Source: Qipengyuania mesophila (GTDB taxonomy: Bacteria; Pseudomonadota; Alphaproteobacteria; Sphingomonadales; Sphingomonadaceae). From it: 64,000 nucleotides of DNA. Position numbers and translations under genes: made by a program. The first letter of the stretch is position 1, and each line of letters starts with the position of its first letter. Below the pieces are notes generated by a model, which searched no databases, was not told where the DNA came from, and saw only the letters and a list, made by a program, of their open reading frames with translations. The stretch covers positions 62,001 to 126,000 of the forward strand of contig NZ_JAIGNU010000001.1 in the NCBI RefSeq assembly GCF_019711655.1, written 5' to 3'. Positions 40,679-49,507 of the stretch are shown here, one piece after another.

Positions 40679-41551
40679 ATGACCCGCAAGGCCGACCCGC
40701 ACGAGACCCGCCTGCCCGTCCCCCGGGGCGAGCTGCCCCCCTTCGACCCCGTGCCGCGCAAATGCGCGCGCCACGACGGCTGGACCGCCACCCGCCAGCG
40801 CCGCTTCATCGAGGCGCTGGCCGACAGCGGCAGCGTCGAATCCGCCTGCCGCACGGTCAATATGAGCACGGTCGGCGCCTATCACCTGCGCCGCCAGCCG
40901 GGCGCCGACAGCTTCCGCGCGGCGTGGGAGGCCGCGCTCGACCTCGGCGTCCAGCGGATCGAGGACGCGGCGATGGACCGCGCGCTCAACGGCACCGAGG
41001 AGACGATCCACTACCACGGCGAGCATGTCGCCACCCGCCGTCGCTACAACGAGCGGCTGGTGATGTTCATCCTGCGCAACCGCGCCGCCGACCGCTTCGG
41101 CGAACACGGCGCGAAGGGCCCCGACGCGGTGGGCAAGATGGAGCTCGAGCGGCTGCGCAGGAAATGGCGCAAGCAGTGGGAGCGCGAATGGGGCGCCGAG
41201 CAGATGAAGCGCGAATGCGAGACCATGGCCTCGATCAACGCCAAGATCGACATGGTCCGCGCCAAGGAGGCCGGCCTCGAAAGCCCCCGCGTGCGCGCCG
41301 CGCGCGAGGCGCTCGAAGAGGCCATCGCCGCCGACCGCGCCGAGCGCTACGACCCCACGCGCGATCCCGACCACGAACTCTATCGCGGCGAGCGCGCGCT
41401 GCCGGGGCGCGAGTACGATTTCGGGATCGTGTGGGAGGGCGAGGAGGTGGACGAGGCGGCGGAGGGCGATGGCGACGCGCCGAGCGAGGATCAGGCGCCC
41501 GCGCCCGGCGTACCGCGCCTACGATCGCTCAGGGATGGTGGGTGGGACTAG
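40679..41551 (+). CDS. HTH-like protein of unknown function
   Basis: A 290-residue hydrophilic protein. The N-terminal region (about 30-80) reads like a terminase-small-subunit or homeodomain-type helix-turn-helix (TRQRRFIEALADSGSVESACRTVNMSTVGAYHLRRQ). It is followed by a charged helical middle (about 140-220) and an acidic tail. Similar proteins are frequent in sphingomonads without assigned roles. DNA binding is likely but not shown. It borders the left edge of the accessory island. Confidence 0.7.
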   Translation: MTRKADPHETRLPVPRGELPPFDPVPRKCARHDGWTATRQRRFIEALADSGSVESACRTVNMSTVGAYHLRRQPGADSFRAAWEAALDLGVQRIEDAAMDRALNGTEETIHYHGEHVATRRRYNERLVMFILRNRAADRFGEHGAKGPDAVGKMELERLRRKWRKQWEREWGAEQMKRECETMASINAKIDMVRAKEAGLESPRVRAAREALEEAIAADRAERYDPTRDPDHELYRGERALPGREYDFGIVWEGEEVDEAAEGDGDAPSEDQAPAPGVPRLRSLRDGGWD

Positions 41552-41648: not shown

Positions 41649-42017
41649 ATGGAACAAATTGGCATCTACAATGCCAGGGAAGTGGGCGGGCTTGCAGAGC
41701 TTCTTGCAACGATCGATTGTGAACTCGGTGAAAACGAGCACTTCCTGATCGTAGTCAACAACCAAGAGATCGCTGAAGATGAGGGGCTGGAAACAGCCAT
41801 GATGAGCGCTCTTGCTAAGGGAGCGAAAATCATCGTGGTATGGCCTCTTGAGGGGCCACACCTAGCCCTGCCTGACATTCTGCGGAAGATTCGAATAGCC
41901 CTCATCAAGTTTGATTCAGAGGCGCTACACGACGTCATATGCAATAAGAATGGTCGGAATGACGGCCCTGGGGGCGGAAGGCTACCAGCACCAAAAACTG
42001 ATCGGCACTGCTGCTGA
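41649..42017 (+). CDS. Small Rossmann-like alpha/beta protein coupled to Nmad2
   Basis: A 122-residue protein. Alternating strands and helices (HFLIVVNN, EDEGLETAMMSALAKGAKIIVVWPLEG, IALIKFD) suggest a small nucleotide-binding fold, distantly like nucleoside deoxyribosyltransferase or TIR folds; that comparison is only by pattern. ACGGGGAA precedes the ATG. Its TGA shares one base with the next ATG (TGATG), so it is translated together with the Nmad2 protein. Base composition is lower in GC than the core genes. Family not recognised. Confidence 0.6.
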   Translation: MEQIGIYNAREVGGLAELLATIDCELGENEHFLIVVNNQEIAEDEGLETAMMSALAKGAKIIVVWPLEGPHLALPDILRKIRIALIKFDSEALHDVICNKNGRNDGPGGGRLPAPKTDRHCC

Positions 42018-42547
42018 TGCAAGTTCATACATACTGCGTCGAGCATGACCTCGGATTTGCGCCCAATCCCTTTCATGGAATTTGCTCTCTTGCGTGTTGC
42101 GCCCCTCAGCTTCGCAAGCATGCTGAAGAAGGAGACTTGGTCGTAGGACGAGGTAGTGTCAGGGCGGGCCGCCCAAATAATCTTGTCTACTGGATGTTGA
42201 TCGAGAACATTATCCAGTTCGAGGATTACGACGCTGACCCAGCTTATGCGGCGAAAATTCCGGATATGAGCGGAAGCACCATGGTTCGATTTGGCGACAA
42301 TATCTACTTCCGTGACCCGGTAACAGGCCAGTTCATCCAGCGCGATTCTTTCCACAGCAACGAAGATGGTGTCCAAAGCCCGACCGACATTCAGACCGAT
42401 ACAGGCACCACCACCAATGTGCTCCTGGGTCGGCAGTTCACATATTTTGGCGGCGAAGGCCCAAAAATTCCCGACCAGCTCCGAGCGATGTTCCCGCGCC
42501 GAAATCGGCGATGTCACCACTCCCCTAAAAAAAAGGTGATTGTATAG
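42017..42547 (+). CDS. Nucleotide modification associated domain 2 (Nmad2) protein, 3' end altered by transposon
   Basis: A 176-residue protein. HDLGFAPNPFHGICSLACC (residues 9-27), the RKHAEEGDLVVGRGS segment and a C-terminal VLLGRQFTYFGGEGPKIP match my memory of the Nmad2 family, which was defined by its association with nucleotide and DNA-base modification genes. Catalysis is unknown. The last residues (VIV and stop) are encoded by the terminal inverted repeat of the inserted IS1595-type element. Joining the two sides of the insertion at the A-tract gives an uninterrupted tail (KKKRRIARVA) with a stop at 44907-44909. The functional core seems untouched. Confidence 0.78.
   Translation: MQVHTYCVEHDLGFAPNPFHGICSLACCAPQLRKHAEEGDLVVGRGSVRAGRPNNLVYWMLIENIIQFEDYDADPAYAAKIPDMSGSTMVRFGDNIYFRDPVTGQFIQRDSFHSNEDGVQSPTDIQTDTGTTTNVLLGRQFTYFGGEGPKIPDQLRAMFPRRNRRCHHSPKKKVIV
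42527..42534. repeat. Target-site duplication (AAAAAAAA), paired with 44877-44884
   Basis: Eight A residues abut the left inverted repeat, and the same eight abut the right one. The tract being homopolymeric lowers the certainty of the exact length. Confidence 0.6.
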
Positions 42548-42560
42548 TTTGCAAACACGC
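42535..42560 (+). repeat. Left terminal inverted repeat of the IS1595-type element
   Basis: Begins GG and contains TATA followed by TTTGCAAACAC (core at 42548-42558). It pairs with the reverse complement of 44851-44876 at 21 of 26 positions. It also supplies the present stop codon of the Nmad2 gene. Confidence 0.75.
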
Positions 42561-42606
42561 TGGCCATGCGGCATTGTTTCCGACCAATCACCGTGGAGTC
42601 GGATGC

Positions 42607-42882
42607 GTGGATTACGATGCTGAAATTAGGCGGCTAGCCGCCGAGAACATGGCCCAACAGTATCTCTTAATTGGCCTATGCCGCGGGATCGTTGGGCTGG
42701 ACGGGCGCAACGCCCCTGTCGTCGAAGATGCCTTCCGCTATGCGGAGAGCATGGTTGAAATCGCTGCGACTAAATTCTCTGGGACAGGGCACGGCGCTCA
42801 TGTCGCCAGTATTGCAGAGGTAGTGGAACAGCTTCGCGCCGCGCTTCTCGATGATGGCGGCCAGCCTAAGGACGCTGTTTAG
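42607..42882 (+). CDS. Small helical passenger protein, unknown function
   Basis: A 91-residue mainly helical protein (MDYDAEIRRLAAENM... to ...QPKDAV). The GTG at 42607 was chosen because GGAG ends 8 bases upstream; a TTG at 42574 is in frame but lacks a ribosome site. It lies inside the IS1595-type element, and its 3' end overlaps the convergent 54-residue gene by 17 bp. I do not recognise the family. Confidence 0.5.
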   Translation: MDYDAEIRRLAAENMAQQYLLIGLCRGIVGLDGRNAPVVEDAFRYAESMVEIAATKFSGTGHGAHVASIAEVVEQLRAALLDDGGQPKDAV

Positions 42883-43030
42883 CTTCGTCGGACTCATCGC
42901 GACCACCCCTCACCACCTTGCGAAGCCGCTCTTCCCAGCGCGCTTCGTCCTCGTCCGCTTCGTGCTCGCGAGCGGCCTCTTTGAATTTGTCGGATTGACT
43001 CTTGGAGTCTGACTGCGTTGATCCTGTCAT
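42866..43030 (-). CDS. Small acidic charged protein, divergent from DUF3800
   Basis: A 54-residue protein. The core SDKFKEAAREHEADEDEARWEERLRKVV resembles a widespread alphaproteobacterial small protein with the pattern DKF..AARE.E.DE.E..F.EKLRKI, usually annotated hypothetical. CGAGG lies 5-6 bases before its ATG, inside the DUF3800 coding start. The two start codons are back to back (CATATG). Function unknown. Confidence 0.6.
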   Translation of the reverse strand: MTGSTQSDSKSQSDKFKEAAREHEADEDEARWEERLRKVVRGGRDESDEAKQRP

Positions 43031-43735
43031 ATGCACCTCGTTTATATTGACGACTCCTATGAGAAGCCGCGCCAGATATATTCGGCTGTGGCGATACCCG
43101 CGAATAGGTGGGCCGCTTGCTTTGCCGAGATTAAAGCATGGCGACGCAAACTCAAAGAAAGCGACGGCATTCTTATCACCAAGGAGTTTCACGCCACCAG
43201 CTTTTGCGCGGGGCGAGGGAGGCTGGGTCCTCAAGTCGTTGGCAAATACCGCCGGTCCCTCATTTTTCGTGAAGCCCTTGAATTGCTGAACGGGATGGAG
43301 GGGGTGAAGGTGTTCAACGTGTGTCGCTCGTCCAATCTTGATTGGGCGATGGAGCGACTTCTCACTCGCATCAACAAGACCATGCAAACTTGGGATAGCC
43401 ACGCAGTTCTCATGTTCGACGAGGGCAAAGAGGCCGAGATTACGCGGCTTCTGAGGCGCATGGGCGCGTTCAATCCCGTCCCCGTCTACGTTGCTCCTGG
43501 AGTAACCGAACTGCGCAACCTCAAATTGGATCGCATACTTGAGGACCCCGTGTTCAAAGACTCTGAGCGCTCATACTTCGTTCAAATGGCAGACTTCGTC
43601 GCCTACTCGTTATTACGGAAAGAGCAGCCCCTCGCTTCGAAGAACGCCTACGGATACCACGAGTGCTTCGATATTTTAACCGATGTAGCCGCGCGAGAGG
43701 CCAGTCTATCAGACCCTATGGGGGTGATACGGTAA
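43031..43735 (+). CDS. DUF3800 protein
   Basis: A 234-residue protein of the DUF3800 family, thought to have an RNase H-like fold. The early acidic VYIDDSYEK (Asp7, Asp8), the KEFHATSF segment (His near 54), a central FDEGKEAEI and the late QMADFVAYSLL (about 187-197) are the family markers. DUF3800 genes are frequent on mobile DNA, sometimes near defence genes, and no enzymatic activity is established. It is carried by the IS1595-type element. No clear ribosome site precedes the ATG. Confidence 0.8.
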   Translation: MHLVYIDDSYEKPRQIYSAVAIPANRWAACFAEIKAWRRKLKESDGILITKEFHATSFCAGRGRLGPQVVGKYRRSLIFREALELLNGMEGVKVFNVCRSSNLDWAMERLLTRINKTMQTWDSHAVLMFDEGKEAEITRLLRRMGAFNPVPVYVAPGVTELRNLKLDRILEDPVFKDSERSYFVQMADFVAYSLLRKEQPLASKNAYGYHECFDILTDVAAREASLSDPMGVIR

Positions 43736-43758
43736 GGGCGACCCCGAGGGGCCGCCCT
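43735..43758. terminator. GC-rich stem-loop after DUF3800
   Basis: AGGGCG-A-CCCC (43735-43745) pairs with GGGG-C-CGCCCT (43748-43758), with one mismatch and a two-base loop. It begins on the last base of the DUF3800 stop. There is no U-tract. 43759-43874 holds nothing else that I can identify before the convergent transposase stop. Confidence 0.5.
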
Positions 43759-43874
43759 AAGTAAGCAGGGCCTACACCGCCCGCTAAAGAACGGTTCAGT
43801 CCTGCGAGATCAAACTAACATCATCCCAATCGAACTCAAGCTGAACGGACTCAGCCTGACTCGATTTTGACTCG

Positions 43875-44810
43875 TTACGCCGCAATAGGCCCCCCATACG
43901 TAAGGCGCTTGCCGACGATACCGCGAAGAGCATTCCCAGCGCGGTCAACGTCGTTGAAGCCGAGTGCAACGCGGTTGTTATACCGGAACTCGAATTCGGC
44001 CAGATACCGATGAAGGTGATCTTCGCCGCAATGCTGGTAAACGCCCTTCATGCCGCGCTTGAAGATCGAGAAATAACCCTCAACCGTATTGCTGTGGACC
44101 GTGCGGTCCTCAAGGTTCACGTATTCGCCCTTGCCGTGGCTGGTGGTGCCGTGACCGGCGAAATAGTGCTTCACGTCGCGGTAGCCGCTGTGTTCGTCCG
44201 TCATAATGCGTGCTTCGCGCTCAACGTTGGCGATCACCAGCGGCATGAGGGTTTCGGCCTTCACATCGTCAATCACCATCGTGCGGGCCTTGCGGGTGTC
44301 GCGGTCCACTAGGGCCAGAACCTTCATCTTGTGGTGGAAGGCACGGCGCTTCTTCATGCCCTTCTTCTTGCCGATGAAAGTCTCGTCCACTTCCACGATA
44401 CCGCCGTTGCCGCCCATCGGGGGAAGCTCGCCACCGTCGCGCATTGCCTCGCGAATGCGGTGCAGGAGAAACCATGCCGACTTGTAGGTGATTTCCAGCG
44501 TGCGGTGCAGCTGGTGAGCACTGATACCCTTCTTGCTGCTCGTTACCAGATAGACCGCCTGAAGCATCTTGTGCATCGGAATGCGGGCGTGTTCGAAAAC
44601 CGTGCCGACCTTGACGGTGAACTGCTTCTTGCAGTCGCCACAGCGCCAGAGGCCGACACGAATACGCTTCTCGGGGTTCGCCTTCACCTTCGTGATGCGA
44701 TCTACGCCACCACAGTGAGGGCAAACGGCTCCGTCCGTCCAAATCACACTTTCAAGGTAAGCGAAGGCCGCTTCCTCGTTGTGGAAATAGGGCTTTGAAA
44801 GGACAGACAT
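43875..44810 (-). CDS. IS1595-family (ISXO2-like) transposase
   Basis: A 311-residue transposase. The N-terminal zinc ribbon has Cys30-x2-Cys33 and Cys57-x2-Cys60 (CPHCG, CGDC). The catalytic domain has EVDETFIG (Asp142), MTDEHSGY (Asp near 204) and the HSNTVEGYFSIFKRG stretch with the Asn and Glu of the DDN(E) set. All key residues are present, so it may be active. GGAGAAG precedes the ATG at 44810; longer readings upstream have no such support. Confidence 0.93.
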   Translation of the reverse strand: MSVLSKPYFHNEEAAFAYLESVIWTDGAVCPHCGGVDRITKVKANPEKRIRVGLWRCGDCKKQFTVKVGTVFEHARIPMHKMLQAVYLVTSSKKGISAHQLHRTLEITYKSAWFLLHRIREAMRDGGELPPMGGNGGIVEVDETFIGKKKGMKKRRAFHHKMKVLALVDRDTRKARTMVIDDVKAETLMPLVIANVEREARIMTDEHSGYRDVKHYFAGHGTTSHGKGEYVNLEDRTVHSNTVEGYFSIFKRGMKGVYQHCGEDHLHRYLAEFEFRYNNRVALGFNDVDRAGNALRGIVGKRLTYGGPIAA

Positions 44811-44820
44811 TTCTACTTCT

Positions 44821-44850
44821 CCGTTGGTGAACCCTTTATAGCACCAACGG
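44821..44850. promoter_or_regulatory. 9-bp inverted repeat ahead of the transposase gene
   Basis: CCGTTGGTG (44821-44829) and CACCAACGG (44842-44850) form perfect arms around 12 bases, 10 bp upstream of the transposase ATG and touching the right inverted repeat. In the mRNA this hairpin would sit over the ribosome-binding region, which could lower transposase translation or protect it from outside transcripts. Inference only. Confidence 0.5.
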
Positions 44851-44876
44851 GTGTGTTTGCAAAGTATATTATCGCC
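44851..44876 (-). repeat. Right terminal inverted repeat of the IS1595-type element
   Basis: Read on the minus strand it starts GG and contains TTTGCAAACAC (44853-44863 complement), matching the left end. Ten A residues (44877-44886) follow outside; the first eight equal the left flank 42527-42534. Confidence 0.75.
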
Positions 44877-45021
44877 AAAAAAAAAAGACGCATTGCTCGA
44901 GTGGCTTGATGTGAGCAATCCGAGAGGCATTGTAGGATTGCCAACAGATTGGGCGGATATCCACCACTGATCAGCCCATGATTCGAGACGAATCGTTCAG
45001 GTTTCGATAGGTCCAAGCGCT

Positions 45022-46044
45022 ATGGATCACCTGTCTCGCAGCCCAGCGTTTGACGACTACTGGAAATTCGCGGCGAAGCGGCATGAAGCATACCTGAGTC
45101 GGGCGCAGGGTCAGCCCGGTCCATGGACCGACGATCCAATCATTGCAAAATTCAGATTCACCAACACATTTCGCGCCGCCGATCGAGTAAGCCAATTTCT
45201 CATTCGTCACATCCAATATGATCGCTCTAATGATTTAAGCGACGAAGACATTTTGTTCCGCACACTACTGTTCAAGATTTTCAACAATATCGATACTTGG
45301 AAATCCCTCGAGAGAGAATTTGGACAAATCCGCTGGATAGATTTTAACTTCGGCCTGGCAAACGATCTGCTCGAAGCCGCCATAAGCTCTGGCAGAACGA
45401 TTTACTCTGCAGCATACATAATGCCGTCACCAGCGTTCGGTGCAAAGCGAAAGCATACCAATCATCTACGTTTATTGAAGTCGATGATGGAAGAACGGCT
45501 AACGCAACACGTAACTTCAGCGAATTCCCTTCAGAGTCTCTATCACACGCTCCTTAACTACAAAGGGCTTGGGCCATTTTTGGCATTCCAATACGCAATC
45601 GATATAAATTACTCTCAGCTTACAGATTTTGAAGAAAATGAATTTGTGGTTGCCGGACCTGGAGCTCATGACGGAATACGCAAGGTATTTCCTGACGCTG
45701 CGCCCAACGATGCAGAGGATATCATCCACTGGATGGTTGAAAGGCAGGACCGGGAATTCGAGAGGCTTGGCATAGATTTTGAAGGGCTTTTCGGCCGCAA
45801 ATTACGTGCAATCGACTGCCAGAATATATTTTGCGAAATTTCTAAATACTGCCGCGTCGCTCATCCGAGCCTACAAGGCATAAGTGGCCGAAAGCGCATA
45901 AAGCAGAGTTTTTCAAGTTCGCGCCGCTCGGCAATGCCCGCGCCGTTCTTCCCTCCGAAATGGAAGATAAACGACAAGATTGAGCTGTCATACTCTTCTT
46001 CCCATTGCGGTGATACTCAAGCCCAACTTGAGCTAAGCATTTAA
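45022..46044 (+). CDS. 5-hmdU DNA kinase / alpha-glutamyl-putrescinyl-thymine pyrophosphorylase superfamily protein
   Basis: A 340-residue protein. FRFTNTFRAADRVSQFLIRH (about residues 44-63) is the hallmark helical segment of this superfamily, defined from phage thymidine-hypermodification systems. Further conserved parts are IYSAAYIMP, FVVAGPGAHDGIRK (about 208-221), AIDCQNIFCE and the late FFPPKW. Family members in phages act on modified bases in DNA; the bacterial versions have no proven role. The gene is AT-richer than the core. It overlaps the convergent MazG-like gene by 4 bp at the stops. Confidence 0.72.
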   Translation: MDHLSRSPAFDDYWKFAAKRHEAYLSRAQGQPGPWTDDPIIAKFRFTNTFRAADRVSQFLIRHIQYDRSNDLSDEDILFRTLLFKIFNNIDTWKSLEREFGQIRWIDFNFGLANDLLEAAISSGRTIYSAAYIMPSPAFGAKRKHTNHLRLLKSMMEERLTQHVTSANSLQSLYHTLLNYKGLGPFLAFQYAIDINYSQLTDFEENEFVVAGPGAHDGIRKVFPDAAPNDAEDIIHWMVERQDREFERLGIDFEGLFGRKLRAIDCQNIFCEISKYCRVAHPSLQGISGRKRIKQSFSSSRRSAMPAPFFPPKWKINDKIELSYSSSHCGDTQAQLELSI

Positions 46045-47660
46045 GAAGGAACTCCGATAGCCATCGCTAAGCAAATCCAGCGCCTTCCAGTTTTGGTCCA
46101 TTGCGTCCGGAAGCCAACAATAGAACGTTCCCAAATCGCCTCTTGCACATCGCCGTGGGCTTTTACGCTTATTTGCTTACTTCTTGAGTGGGCGACCTTT
46201 ATTTTAGATAGATTCTCGAAACTCGCCTCAACCCTCAGAATACGGAGTATTGCAGCTGCTTCTACCTGCGCCCTCTCGGCGTCTGTAATATCTCGTGAAA
46301 GAAGCGATTTCGGTCGAAAAATTTCGATTGCAGTGTCGACTACGGGGCCATGGACATCAGCGATGACCATCGGCGAATATGTCACTTGGCGTTTCTCAAG
46401 GTCAATCGATACAGTGCCCTGCTTCTCTTCGTGCAACTGGGCATAGAGGCGATGCCCCGCTACTATCGCTTTTCGCCACTCCCAATCTCTGCTTTTTTCA
46501 ACTTCGAGATCTTTGGCAAAGGTCCTGACAAGTTTTAGGAAGTGATAGGGTATCTGTCCAGCATCGGTGAACAAACGACGGCGTGCTTCGTCGGTACTCA
46601 ATCCCTCATACTCACCAATCAGTATGGCGTACGAGTGGACAGCCTTAACGATTGCTTCTTCTACTATTCGCGCTCTTGCGCCATCCTCTGTTCGATCAAT
46701 GATAGGATTATATTTCCGCTTTAATCCCATCAATGATCGCATCACCGGGGACCAACCTAGTACCGCAATGTTAGCCAGATGCAGTGCGTCGTGAAACCTA
46801 TACCCATCATCGGTTCTTGCATTGTCGTCGAGCTCGTCTCCTAGAGGACGTCCTCGATAGAACATCTGCAATCGGTCGCGCTTGGTCGAGACGTAAGAGA
46901 TCTCGAACTTAAGCGGAAATTGTTGTTCTTCTGGAATTCCCTCGATACGGTCATACAAAGCAGTCGGCTGTGAATCCGTTCGATTGGAAATTTCCGTAAT
47001 TTTTAATTCATTCGCTTCGGCGACTTTGCAAAGGGATAGGTCATAAAGAGAAGCGATAGCGCTTAAATGCCATAATATTGCACCAAGTGTACGATCTTGA
47101 ACGAATGGCGGGATATCATCTCTCAATCCGGCTTCAGCCGTAGGAAACTGCTGCCCCATAATCGCAGTTGAAAGGAGCATTAAGCGCGTTAGGCAAACAT
47201 CTAAGAGCTCCTGCCCCTGCGTCCGTGCCGTTAGGAATGCAACCGACTGATAGGCATCTAAGGAAGCGCCCTTGCCTTCTTTTATCAATTCTGCAGAATT
47301 TTTGCAGAAATCCTCAAAATCACCATCATCGATAGCATTTTGAAAATTTTTATTAGACTCGATCTTCGAAGCCAAGGCCTCGAAATCGGCCTTGATTATT
47401 GAAGCTAAGCCACCTCCATTCTCCATGGAAGCGAGTTGAGTAACATACCAAAGACTGTCGCCAAGTTCCTCGATGATCTCTTCGTTGCTGATATTCCAAT
47501 GCTCAGCTTCGTGATGTAGAACTTTTTTCTTAAGTGCTGAAGCTAGGGCACCTATCTCTGCTGCCAAGCCATATCTCGCAATTCGAAAACGCTCTTCAGT
47601 CGGTTTCTCGTTAGTCCAATCAGAGTCCCTTACGAATTCATCGTAGCTTGCGAGTCGCAC
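46041..47660 (-). CDS. MazG-like NTP pyrophosphohydrolase with long C-terminal extension
   Basis: A 539-residue protein. The N-terminal 110 residues hold the all-alpha NTP pyrophosphohydrolase motif: LAAEIGAL (Glu35) and EEIIEELGDSLWYV (Glu60, Glu61, Glu64, Glu65, Asp68), the metal-binding set. A second conserved block (FHDALHLANIAVLGWSPVMR and EDGARARIVEEAIVKAVHSYA, about 285-345) may be a divergent second helical NTPase-like unit. The last 190 residues are unassigned. The GTG start has AAGGGGG 5 bases upstream. It begins 11 bp after the lepA stop on the same strand, so it may be read from lepA. Confidence 0.75.
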   Translation of the reverse strand: MRLASYDEFVRDSDWTNEKPTEERFRIARYGLAAEIGALASALKKKVLHHEAEHWNISNEEIIEELGDSLWYVTQLASMENGGGLASIIKADFEALASKIESNKNFQNAIDDGDFEDFCKNSAELIKEGKGASLDAYQSVAFLTARTQGQELLDVCLTRLMLLSTAIMGQQFPTAEAGLRDDIPPFVQDRTLGAILWHLSAIASLYDLSLCKVAEANELKITEISNRTDSQPTALYDRIEGIPEEQQFPLKFEISYVSTKRDRLQMFYRGRPLGDELDDNARTDDGYRFHDALHLANIAVLGWSPVMRSLMGLKRKYNPIIDRTEDGARARIVEEAIVKAVHSYAILIGEYEGLSTDEARRRLFTDAGQIPYHFLKLVRTFAKDLEVEKSRDWEWRKAIVAGHRLYAQLHEEKQGTVSIDLEKRQVTYSPMVIADVHGPVVDTAIEIFRPKSLLSRDITDAERAQVEAAAILRILRVEASFENLSKIKVAHSRSKQISVKAHGDVQEAIWERSIVGFRTQWTKTGRRWICLAMAIGVPS

Positions 47661-47671
47661 TTTTTACCCCC

Positions 47672-49507
47672 TTATTCTTCTCCCATACGAAGTGCGGCTA
47701 TAAACGCTTCCTGCGGGATAGACACATTGCCATACTCCCGCATCCGCGCCTTGCCCTTCTTCTGCTTCTCGAGCAGCTTCTTCTTGCGCGTGATGTCGCC
47801 GCCGTAGCACTTGGCGGTCACGTCCTTGCGCAAGGCGGCGATGGTTTCGCGGGCGATCACCTTGCCGCCGATCGCGGCCTGGATCGGGATCTTGAACAGG
47901 TGCCGCGGGATGAGGTCCTTCAATCGCTCGCACATGCCGCGGCCGCGTTCCTCGGCCACACTGCGGTGAACGATCAGGCTGAGCGCGTCGACCGGCTCCG
48001 CATTGACGAGGATGTTCATCTTGACGAGGTCGCCCTCGCGCAGGCCGATCTGCTCGTAATCGAAGGAGGCGTAGCCTCGCGAGATCGACTTCAGGCGATC
48101 GTAGAAGTCGAACACCACCTCGTTCAGCGGCAGCTCGTAGCTCACCTGCGCGCGGCCGCCGACATAGGTGAGGTTGGTCTGGATGCCGCGGCGGTCCTGG
48201 CACAGTTTCAGGATCGCGCCGAGATATTCGTCGGGCGTGTAGATCACCGCCTTGATCCACGGCTCCTCGATCGTCTCGATGCGGTTGACGTCGGGCCAGT
48301 CGGCGGGGTTGTGGATGTCGATCGTCTTCGCGTCCTCGGTCTTCGAATGGCCGAGGTGGACGCGGTAGACCACGCTGGGGGCGGTGGTGATGAGGTCGAG
48401 ATCGTATTCGCGGCTGAGCCGTTCCTGGATGATTTCCAGGTGCAGCAGGCCGAGGAAGCCGGCGCGGAAGCCGAAGCCCAGCGCGGCGCTGCTCTCCATT
48501 TCGTAGCTGAAGCTGGCATCGTTGAGGCGCAGCTTGCCGATCGACTCGCGCAGCTTTTCGAAATCCGCCGCGTCGACCGGGAACAGGCCGCAGAACACCA
48601 CCGGCTGGACTTCCTTGTAGCCCTTCAGCGGGGTGGGCGCGCCGTTCTTGACCGTGGTGATGGTGTCGCCGACGCGCGCCTGCTCGACTTCCTTGATCTG
48701 CGCGGTGATGAAGCCGATCTCGCCCGGGCCCAGTTCGGGCAGGTCGGTGCGCTTGGGGGTGAAGCAGCCGACGCGGTCGATCAGGTGTTGCGTGCCGCCC
48801 TGCATGAACTTGACCTGGAGGCCCTTCCTGATGACCCCGTCCATCACGCGCACGAGAATGACGACGCCGAGATAGGGGTCGTACCAGGAGTCGACGAGCA
48901 TGGCTTTCAATGGCGCGTCGCGGTCGCCGGTGGGGGCGGGAATGCGCTTGACCAGCGCCTCGAGCGTGTCCTCGATGCCGATGCCGGACTTGGCGGAGGT
49001 GAGCACCGCGCCGCCCTCTTCCCACGGGCCGGTCGCCTCGATCCCGACGATTTCCTCGATTTCCTCGGCGACCCGCTCCGGTTCGGCGGCGGGGAGGTCG
49101 ATCTTGTTGATCACGGGGACGATCTCGTGGTCGTGCTCGATCGACTGGTAGACATTGGCGAGCGTCTGCGCCTCGACCCCCTGTGCGGCGTCGACCACGA
49201 GCAGCGCGCCCTCGCAGGCGGCGAGGGAGCGGGAGACCTCATAGGCGAAGTCGACATGGCCGGGCGTATCCATGAGGTTGAGCTCGTAGGTCGCGCCGTC
49301 GCGCGCGGTGTAGTTCAGGCGCACGGTCTGGGCCTTGATGGTGATCCCGCGCTCCTTCTCGATGTCCATGTTATCAAGCACTTGCTCGGACATCTCGCGC
49401 TCGGTCAGCCCGCCGCAGTGCTGGATCAGCCGGTCGGCGAGGGTCGATTTGCCATGGTCGATATGGGCGATGATCGAAAAATTGCGGATCTTGGAAAGGT
49501 CAGTCAT
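47672..49507 (-). CDS. lepA: Elongation factor 4
   Basis: A 611-residue GTPase that back-translocates ribosomes. The G1 motif AHIDHGKST (residues 14-22), the switch region with [18 protein letters not shown] and NKIDLP are present, followed by the LepA-specific C-terminal domain ending near [17 protein letters not shown]. Complete. Its stop forms the right edge of the accessory island. Confidence 0.97.

Follow-up and report, generated by a model that had tools for sequence, protein, structure and literature searches.

Thoeris consists of a ThsB TIR protein and a SLOG-bearing ThsA, and it is, like Kongming, an immune system in which nucleotide signals operate. Here it is compared with a four-gene cassette in a 64,000-nucleotide stretch of Qipengyuania mesophila (contig NZ_JAIGNU010000001.1, positions 62,001 to 126,000; hereafter the window), where genes for a small TIR-like protein, an Nmad2 protein, an HMUDK_hel protein and a MazG-like NTPase with a MazG_C domain stand beside the host gene lepA. 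Like Thoeris, the cassette has a ThsB match (profile PDLC00418), given by the small protein that partners Nmad2, and sister loci in other genomes encode a SLOG protein; in contrast, the window TIR carries no catalytic motif, Nmad2, MazG_C and HMUDK_hel are added, and no ThsA-like gene was found among the Pfam matches of the cassette. Because its relatives in many bacteria are often neighbours of genes that resemble parts of known antiviral systems, the cassette is probably an immune module. We give an even chance to the fuller reading that it is a horizontally acquired anti-phage cassette which would sense and process abnormal (modified) nucleotides.

Phage thymidine hypermodification (M6, ViI and phiW-14) is the second related system, and the phage 5-hydroxymethyldeoxyuridine (5hmdU) kinase is described in PMC6449724. 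Homologues of HMUDK_hel were found in 491 phage records, including Pseudomonas and Salmonella phages, some of them annotated as aGPT-Pplase1, Nmad5 or 5-hmdU DNA kinase helical domain. However, the best identity of the window protein to the listed phage records was about 37% (52% for some viral contigs), the window protein has other partner genes and no kinase motif, and two profiles built in this analysis gave no match in it to a thymidylate synthase (TS)-like gene. Nor did any of the ten open reading frames (ORFs) given to Pfam match a phage structural gene over the cut-off, in agreement with a preliminary description of this DNA. That description had also likened the HMUDK_hel protein to a 5-hmdU kinase; a P-loop scan detected no P-loop motif in the window protein, and no result points to the thymidine-type nucleotide then proposed.

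Some of these domains have been connected with defence before. In the passages compared, the legend of validated systems of DefensePredictor (PMC13092281, 2026) names 5hmdU DNA kinase, TS, NMAD and MPP, and MazG, MazG_C, NMAD and aGPT-Pplase are predicted there as defence domains, with the statement that none of these was validated. Neither the word TIR nor the word SLOG was found in its main text, and its passages, compared by text and not by gene order, do not contain the minimal combination of TIR-like, Nmad2, HMUDK_hel and MazG_C genes. Among the papers listed for Nmad2, HMUDK and aGPT-Pplase, none other dealt with this neighbourhood, in a coverage outside which most subscription journals lie. 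Judged by those passages, the defence prediction for NMAD, MazG and MazG_C is already published (PMC13092281), and the new points are the minimal form with a dead TIR and a C-terminal cysteine.

Four genes in low-GC DNA

The co-location of Nmad2, HMUDK_hel and MazG_C in low-GC DNA beside lepA, the core of the preliminary description, was borne out, as all three families gave strong matches above the Pfam cut-offs. In detail, the Nmad2 ORF (42017-42547, +) matched PF18753 with an E-value of 1.2e-53 over profile positions 3-168 of 200, the HMUDK_hel ORF matched PF18723 with 1e-105 over positions 2-280 of 281, and MazG_C matched PF18722 with 2.8e-55. On the MazG_C protein, the MazG profile PF03819 gave 6e-4 (20.4 bits, cut-off 22) and the PHROG MazG-like profile 6.6e-23. 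The gene set itself had been described incompletely: the three families stand, while the fourth, TIR-like gene and the interruption of Nmad2 were missed, and the DUF3800 gene is cargo of an insertion sequence (IS).

The GC content of these three genes was 0.47-0.53, whereas the window has 0.65 and lepA 0.64. The stop codon of the small TIR-like gene overlaps the Nmad2 start, 11 bases separate the end of the MazG frame from lepA, and the genome holds one copy of the HMUDK_hel gene. HMUDK_hel was present in 8 of 385 genomes of a class sample, MazG_C in 25 of 396 and Nmad2 in 12 of 296 genomes of order samples. The four-gene cassette beside lepA was probably acquired from elsewhere.

Recurrence beside genes like those of antiviral systems

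Neighbourhoods of HMUDK_hel relatives in named genomes were surveyed with family profiles built in this analysis; the best 80 of at least 382 relatives were kept, a set that leans toward near kin of the window protein, and 57 of the 80 loci have 6 kb on both sides. MazG_C was called in 59 and Nmad2 in 18 of the 80, so the families do co-locate in other genomes. Neither outcome that the preliminary description had named as refuting it, profiles without significant matches or families that stand apart elsewhere, therefore occurred. In 31 of the 59, no more than 300 bases separated HMUDK from MazG, and in 56 no more than 3 kb. TS-like genes were called in 62, M78 peptidases in 60 and helix-turn-helix (HTH) genes in 60 of the 80, and wherever both flanks reached 6 kb or more (57 loci), one or more of MazG_C, TS-like, Nmad2 and M78 was present. 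Pfam and PADLOC checks of single members agreed with the neighbour calls except for TS1, which is TS-like by profile comparison with TS2 (probability 96.9) and by one weak Pfam match, four of the five members given to Pfam having no match there. Thus, HMUDK_hel, MazG_C and Nmad2 are patchily distributed yet repeatedly stand side by side.

A metallophosphoesterase protein near HMUDK in one locus (L144:4814-6967, -) belongs to a group whose profile matches the TS-like profile in its second half (probability 95.6), and it is a probable fusion with a TS-like part. A distant DNA search of E. coli genomes with one betaproteobacterial and one Pseudomonas locus gave no match.

Two larger arrangements were seen. 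The first consists of an HTH gene, an M78 peptidase, a TS-like gene, HMUDK_hel and MazG_C, and the second of TIR-SLOG, a ThsB TIR, Nmad2, MazG_C, a second TIR and HMUDK_hel. The second operon occurs in L084, L088, L092, L096, L097 and L134, labelled Polyangiaceae, Myxococcus, Bacteroidetes, Microbacteriaceae, Myxococcales and Pseudomonadota; the second TIR-group gene was not called in L097. The three Nmad2-adjacent TIRs of sister loci that were checked matched ThsB in PADLOC at 7e-52 to 5e-54, and LD_cluster2 was found in all three TIR-SLOG proteins checked. Further, three checked peptidases of the M78 group matched capP at 2.5e-12 to 2.8e-17 and one checked HTH protein matched capH at 9.8e-14 (PADLOC). 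CapH and CapP regulate CBASS and other immune operons, according to a passage of PMC13373217. The link to modified nucleotides and phage defence suggested in the preliminary description thus gains contextual support from the ThsB TIR, TIR-SLOG and CapH/CapP-like context and from the passages of PMC13092281 in which some of the domain names occur among validated systems, while that interpretation as a whole is only partly supported.

The same neighbours bear on a signalling form of the system, in which HMUDK_hel and MazG_C would make or edit a modified-nucleotide signal and the TIR/Nmad2 pair would sense it. TIR-SLOG and ThsB TIR genes do adjoin MazG_C/HMUDK_hel or TS-like genes in the sister loci, and a P-loop motif is present in six of the 108 HMUDK ORFs of the survey (the window counted twice), of which the only one given to Pfam, that of L095, matches thymidylate kinase. 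However, the window form shows no TS-like gene with the two profiles, and both the kinase motif and the catalytic TIR motif are absent from its proteins. With PF00303, a single ordinary thymidylate synthase was detected, at another place in the genome; the diverged TS-like family would mostly escape this profile. We regard the signalling form as rather unlikely for this cassette.

A degenerate TIR and the predicted roles of its partners

The PADLOC ThsB profile matched the window small protein at 3.9e-4 over residues 33-122, its last 90, and a profile of ten such small proteins matched the Nmad2-linked TIRs with a probability of 98.8, vs. at most 1.5 for eight unrelated profiles; Pfam gave no match for the 122-aa protein. 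These comparisons indicate that the small cassette protein descends from a TIR; a STAS assignment was rejected in favour of the TIR match.

The proteins encoded upstream of Nmad2 were then classified by two motifs, F(I/V)SH and (W/Y)VNxE, the latter of which we take to hold the catalytic glutamate of the TIR. The census covered 18 TIRs (16 of 20 rows and the full-length ones of L174 and L175) and 10 dead-TIR proteins, and left out L018, L021, L029 and L030, which are partial or occur again in the larger loci L174, L175, L169 and L167, as well as L084, for which no pair was called, and L145, whose small gene reads with an in-frame stop. Both motifs were present in 18 of 18 TIRs and neither in 10 of 10 dead-TIR proteins. 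The window protein lacks both and ends in ...RHCC. A cysteine is the last or next-to-last residue in all 28 proteins, TIR or dead TIR, the window's included. The overlap with the Nmad2 start was ruled out as the cause of this cysteine, since several proteins have it next-to-last and some pairs do not overlap. Because catalytic and non-catalytic versions alike keep the terminal cysteine, the TIR fold may serve as a carrier or tether. On this basis we put forward, as a doubtful proposal, that TIR and Nmad2 form a new two-protein immune unit; what all the TIR proteins contribute to it would be the C-terminal cysteine and not NAD cleavage, the fold carrying or tethering, perhaps covalently, an EVE-like reader of modified bases that would steer MazG and glycosylase-like enzymes.

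Structural comparison offers some indications of the other roles. Nmad2 of the relative in L145 was modelled (17 sequences, pLDDT 76), and the Protein Data Bank (PDB) matches of the model were ZmASCH at ranks 1-6, THYN1 at rank 7 and PH1033 at rank 9, with YTH domains lower; the THYN1 match 5j3e is, by its title, a complex with 5-methylcytosine DNA. As the ASCH/EVE-like fold class reads modified bases, the model makes Nmad2 a possible PUA/ASCH/EVE-like reader. By sequence, the PDB gave only uL13 ribosomal proteins for Nmad2, at E 0.74 and worse, and no match for HMUDK_hel. The HMUDK_hel model is all-helical, with a pLDDT of 91, and its top 11 PDB rows include the HhH glycosylases 2h56, 3knt, 4uob and 3i0w and the queuine salvage enzyme 7ugk, so that the protein is perhaps glycosylase-like.

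The N-terminal MazG-like unit of the cassette protein resembles the house-cleaning NTP pyrophosphohydrolases of the MazG/DCTPP1 type, with matches to 2q73 and dCTP pyrophosphatase 1. The family profile hits structures of the DCTPP1 type and, further along, also 5ie9 and 2gta, which suggests a second MazG-like unit; this probable second unit and MazG_C set the cassette protein apart from those enzymes, and long members also have a C-terminal extension. The likeness raises a housekeeping or self-modification module, which would clean the dNTP pool or alter the cell's own DNA with no anti-phage role, and MazG-family proteins do clean nucleotide pools according to passages of PMC3855555 and PMC4491611. 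Such a module would fit poorly with the patchy distribution, the low GC, the insertion beside lepA and the ThsB/CapHP-like context of sister loci, and we consider it distinctly unlikely.

In the preferred anti-phage reading, Nmad2, as a PUA/ASCH/EVE-like reader, would bind a modified base or nucleotide arising during infection, and the small TIR-like partner with its cysteine at the C-terminal end would tether or couple it. The MazG-MazG_C protein would convert the matching modified dNTP to the dNMP, and HMUDK_hel, perhaps glycosylase-like, would have the modified nucleotide or the DNA base as its target. Sister loci combine a TIR that retains the catalytic motif with a neighbouring TIR-SLOG protein, and NAD depletion may be the read-out there, whereas in the minimal form it would presumably be destruction of the nucleotide.

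Minimal form, IS1595 element and position beside lepA

Nine loci hold the small TIR-like gene together with Nmad2, MazG_C and HMUDK_hel but none of the other partners, namely the window, L167, L170, L171, L172, L173, L014, L076 and L145. L076 is labelled Methylocystaceae and L145 Alphaproteobacteria, and the others are from the window's own class; some are short on one side, and a further gene there is possible (L173 is a 7.7 kb contig, and L145 has less than 3 kb before Nmad2). By eye, the flanking ORFs of L167, L170, L171 and L172 were mutually unlike. In a quick tree of 100 HMUDK proteins, the minimal form could not be accounted for by fewer than two gains or losses on well-supported branches, and simple counting gave five. 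Compared with L170, a same-genus relative, the four genes, dead TIR included, had synonymous differences per site (pS) of 0.77-0.94, which is saturated, and nonsynonymous ones (pN) of 0.14-0.30. Because pN is this low while pS is saturated, all four are under strong purifying constraint. The synonymous divergence (dS) of lepA between the two genomes was only 0.44, so the cassette was probably not inherited together with lepA in both.

Coordinates of the features are given below.

Table 1. Features of the cassette and its surroundings (positions in the window).
Feature	Position	Strand	Basis
HTH-like gene	40679-41551		GC 0.724; sub-threshold match to phage terminase small subunit
Small TIR-like protein, 122 aa	41649..42017	+	PADLOC ThsB PDLC00418, profile comparison, motif census
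Nmad2, first part (interrupted gene)	42017..42534	+	PF18753; fold search with relative L145
IS1595-family element	42535..44876	.	Inverted ends 42535-42558 and 44853-44876; A runs on flanks
orf102	42574..42882	+	No family match; inside IS element
DUF3800 protein, IS cargo	43031..43735	+	PF12686 1.2e-11; between IS ends
IS1595 transposase ORF	43875..44930	-	PF12762 9.1e-35, NF033547 1.6e-57
Nmad2, last 27 codons and stop	44887..44970	+	Aligns with C-terminus of uninterrupted Nmad2 of L170
HMUDK_hel protein, 340 aa	45022..46044	+	PF18723 1e-105; model pLDDT 91; P-loop scan
MazG-like NTPase with MazG_C domain	46041..47660	-	PF18722 2.8e-55; convergent with HMUDK_hel
lepA, host gene adjoining cassette	47672..49507	-	Diverged second lepA end adjoining the cassette in G570

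The window Nmad2 frame stops at 176 aa and its tail lies past an IS1595-family element, while Nmad2 of L170 is uninterrupted. The inverted ends of the element are 24 nt long and 83% complementary; the listed start of the transposase ORF falls outside them, and the true start is probably further in. DUF3800 and orf102 were rejected as cassette members, both lying inside the element. Among 149 genomes of the family, 33 had matches to pieces of the element, mainly the transposase part, a count that takes in weak matches and the window's own genome, and G841, G848 and G837 have the transposase part and a short left-hand piece at like spacing. The element raises the reading that the cassette is useful in relatives and that the window copy, inactivated by it, is a decayed remnant being lost. 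Nmad2 is indeed split and an effector gene is lacking; however, the HMUDK_hel and MazG_C frames are open, and the Nmad2 sequence ahead of the element still spans positions 3-168 of the profile's 200. This reading is, in our judgement, quite improbable.

The position beside lepA has parallels. In G570 the cassette follows lepA behind a diverged second lepA end (L031/L170; L031 1-780), MazG and Nmad2 follow lepA in L168, and an Nmad2 match stands beside lepA in L049, whose source genome G777 has a second lepA end. The first 40 bases past lepA (the region of window 47672-47740) took many forms across the 30 loci read, though within at least two groups they were shared. Comparison of these loci suggests that the lepA end may be an insertion hot spot in the genus. 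The window itself yielded no second lepA end by which a clean attachment site could be proved, no integrase was found among the ORFs given to Pfam, and the literature search gave no paper on lepA as an insertion site.

The HTH-like gene on the other side was rejected as a cassette member and looks like a mere neighbour, because its GC is 0.724 and it is not conserved like the cassette genes (44% identity and dN/dS, the nonsynonymous to synonymous rate ratio, of 0.90 vs. the same-place gene in L170). It adjoins the cassette in both the window and L170 despite this poor conservation, and it has four further matches elsewhere in the genome.

Several results weigh against the recurrence of the gene set or against the anti-phage reading. 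Concerning the neighbourhood, neither MazG_C nor Nmad2 was called in 15 of the 80 named HMUDK loci, 10 of 11 viral-contig HMUDK loci lack both, and 16 of the 25 MazG_C genomes of the order sample have no HMUDK_hel within about 1.5 kb on each side; the RmrA models of PADLOC also match the CapP-like and capH-like proteins, more weakly. Concerning the structures, no Nmad2 fold match reached an E-value of 0.001 (best 3.7e-3, TM about 0.32-0.47), and unrelated folds (DrmAB, ATP sulfurylase) were interleaved; the best HMUDK fold match had an E-value of 0.48 with prenyl synthases interleaved, and the HMUDK profile matched none of three HhH glycosylases. Concerning the window, the TIR has lost its catalytic motif, the cassette contains no effector gene, LD_cluster2 was not found in the genome by a search that rang in no control, and the cassette may be impaired, since the IS element separates the Nmad2 tail.

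The minimal four-gene form is small enough for reconstitution, and the kept cysteine offers a concrete lead, open to testing, on the coupling of the reader; the proposal built on it would, if true, widen the known roles of TIRs in immunity. If the anti-phage reading is true, the cassette would represent an immune module present in many phyla and built from the same enzyme families with which phages disguise their DNA.

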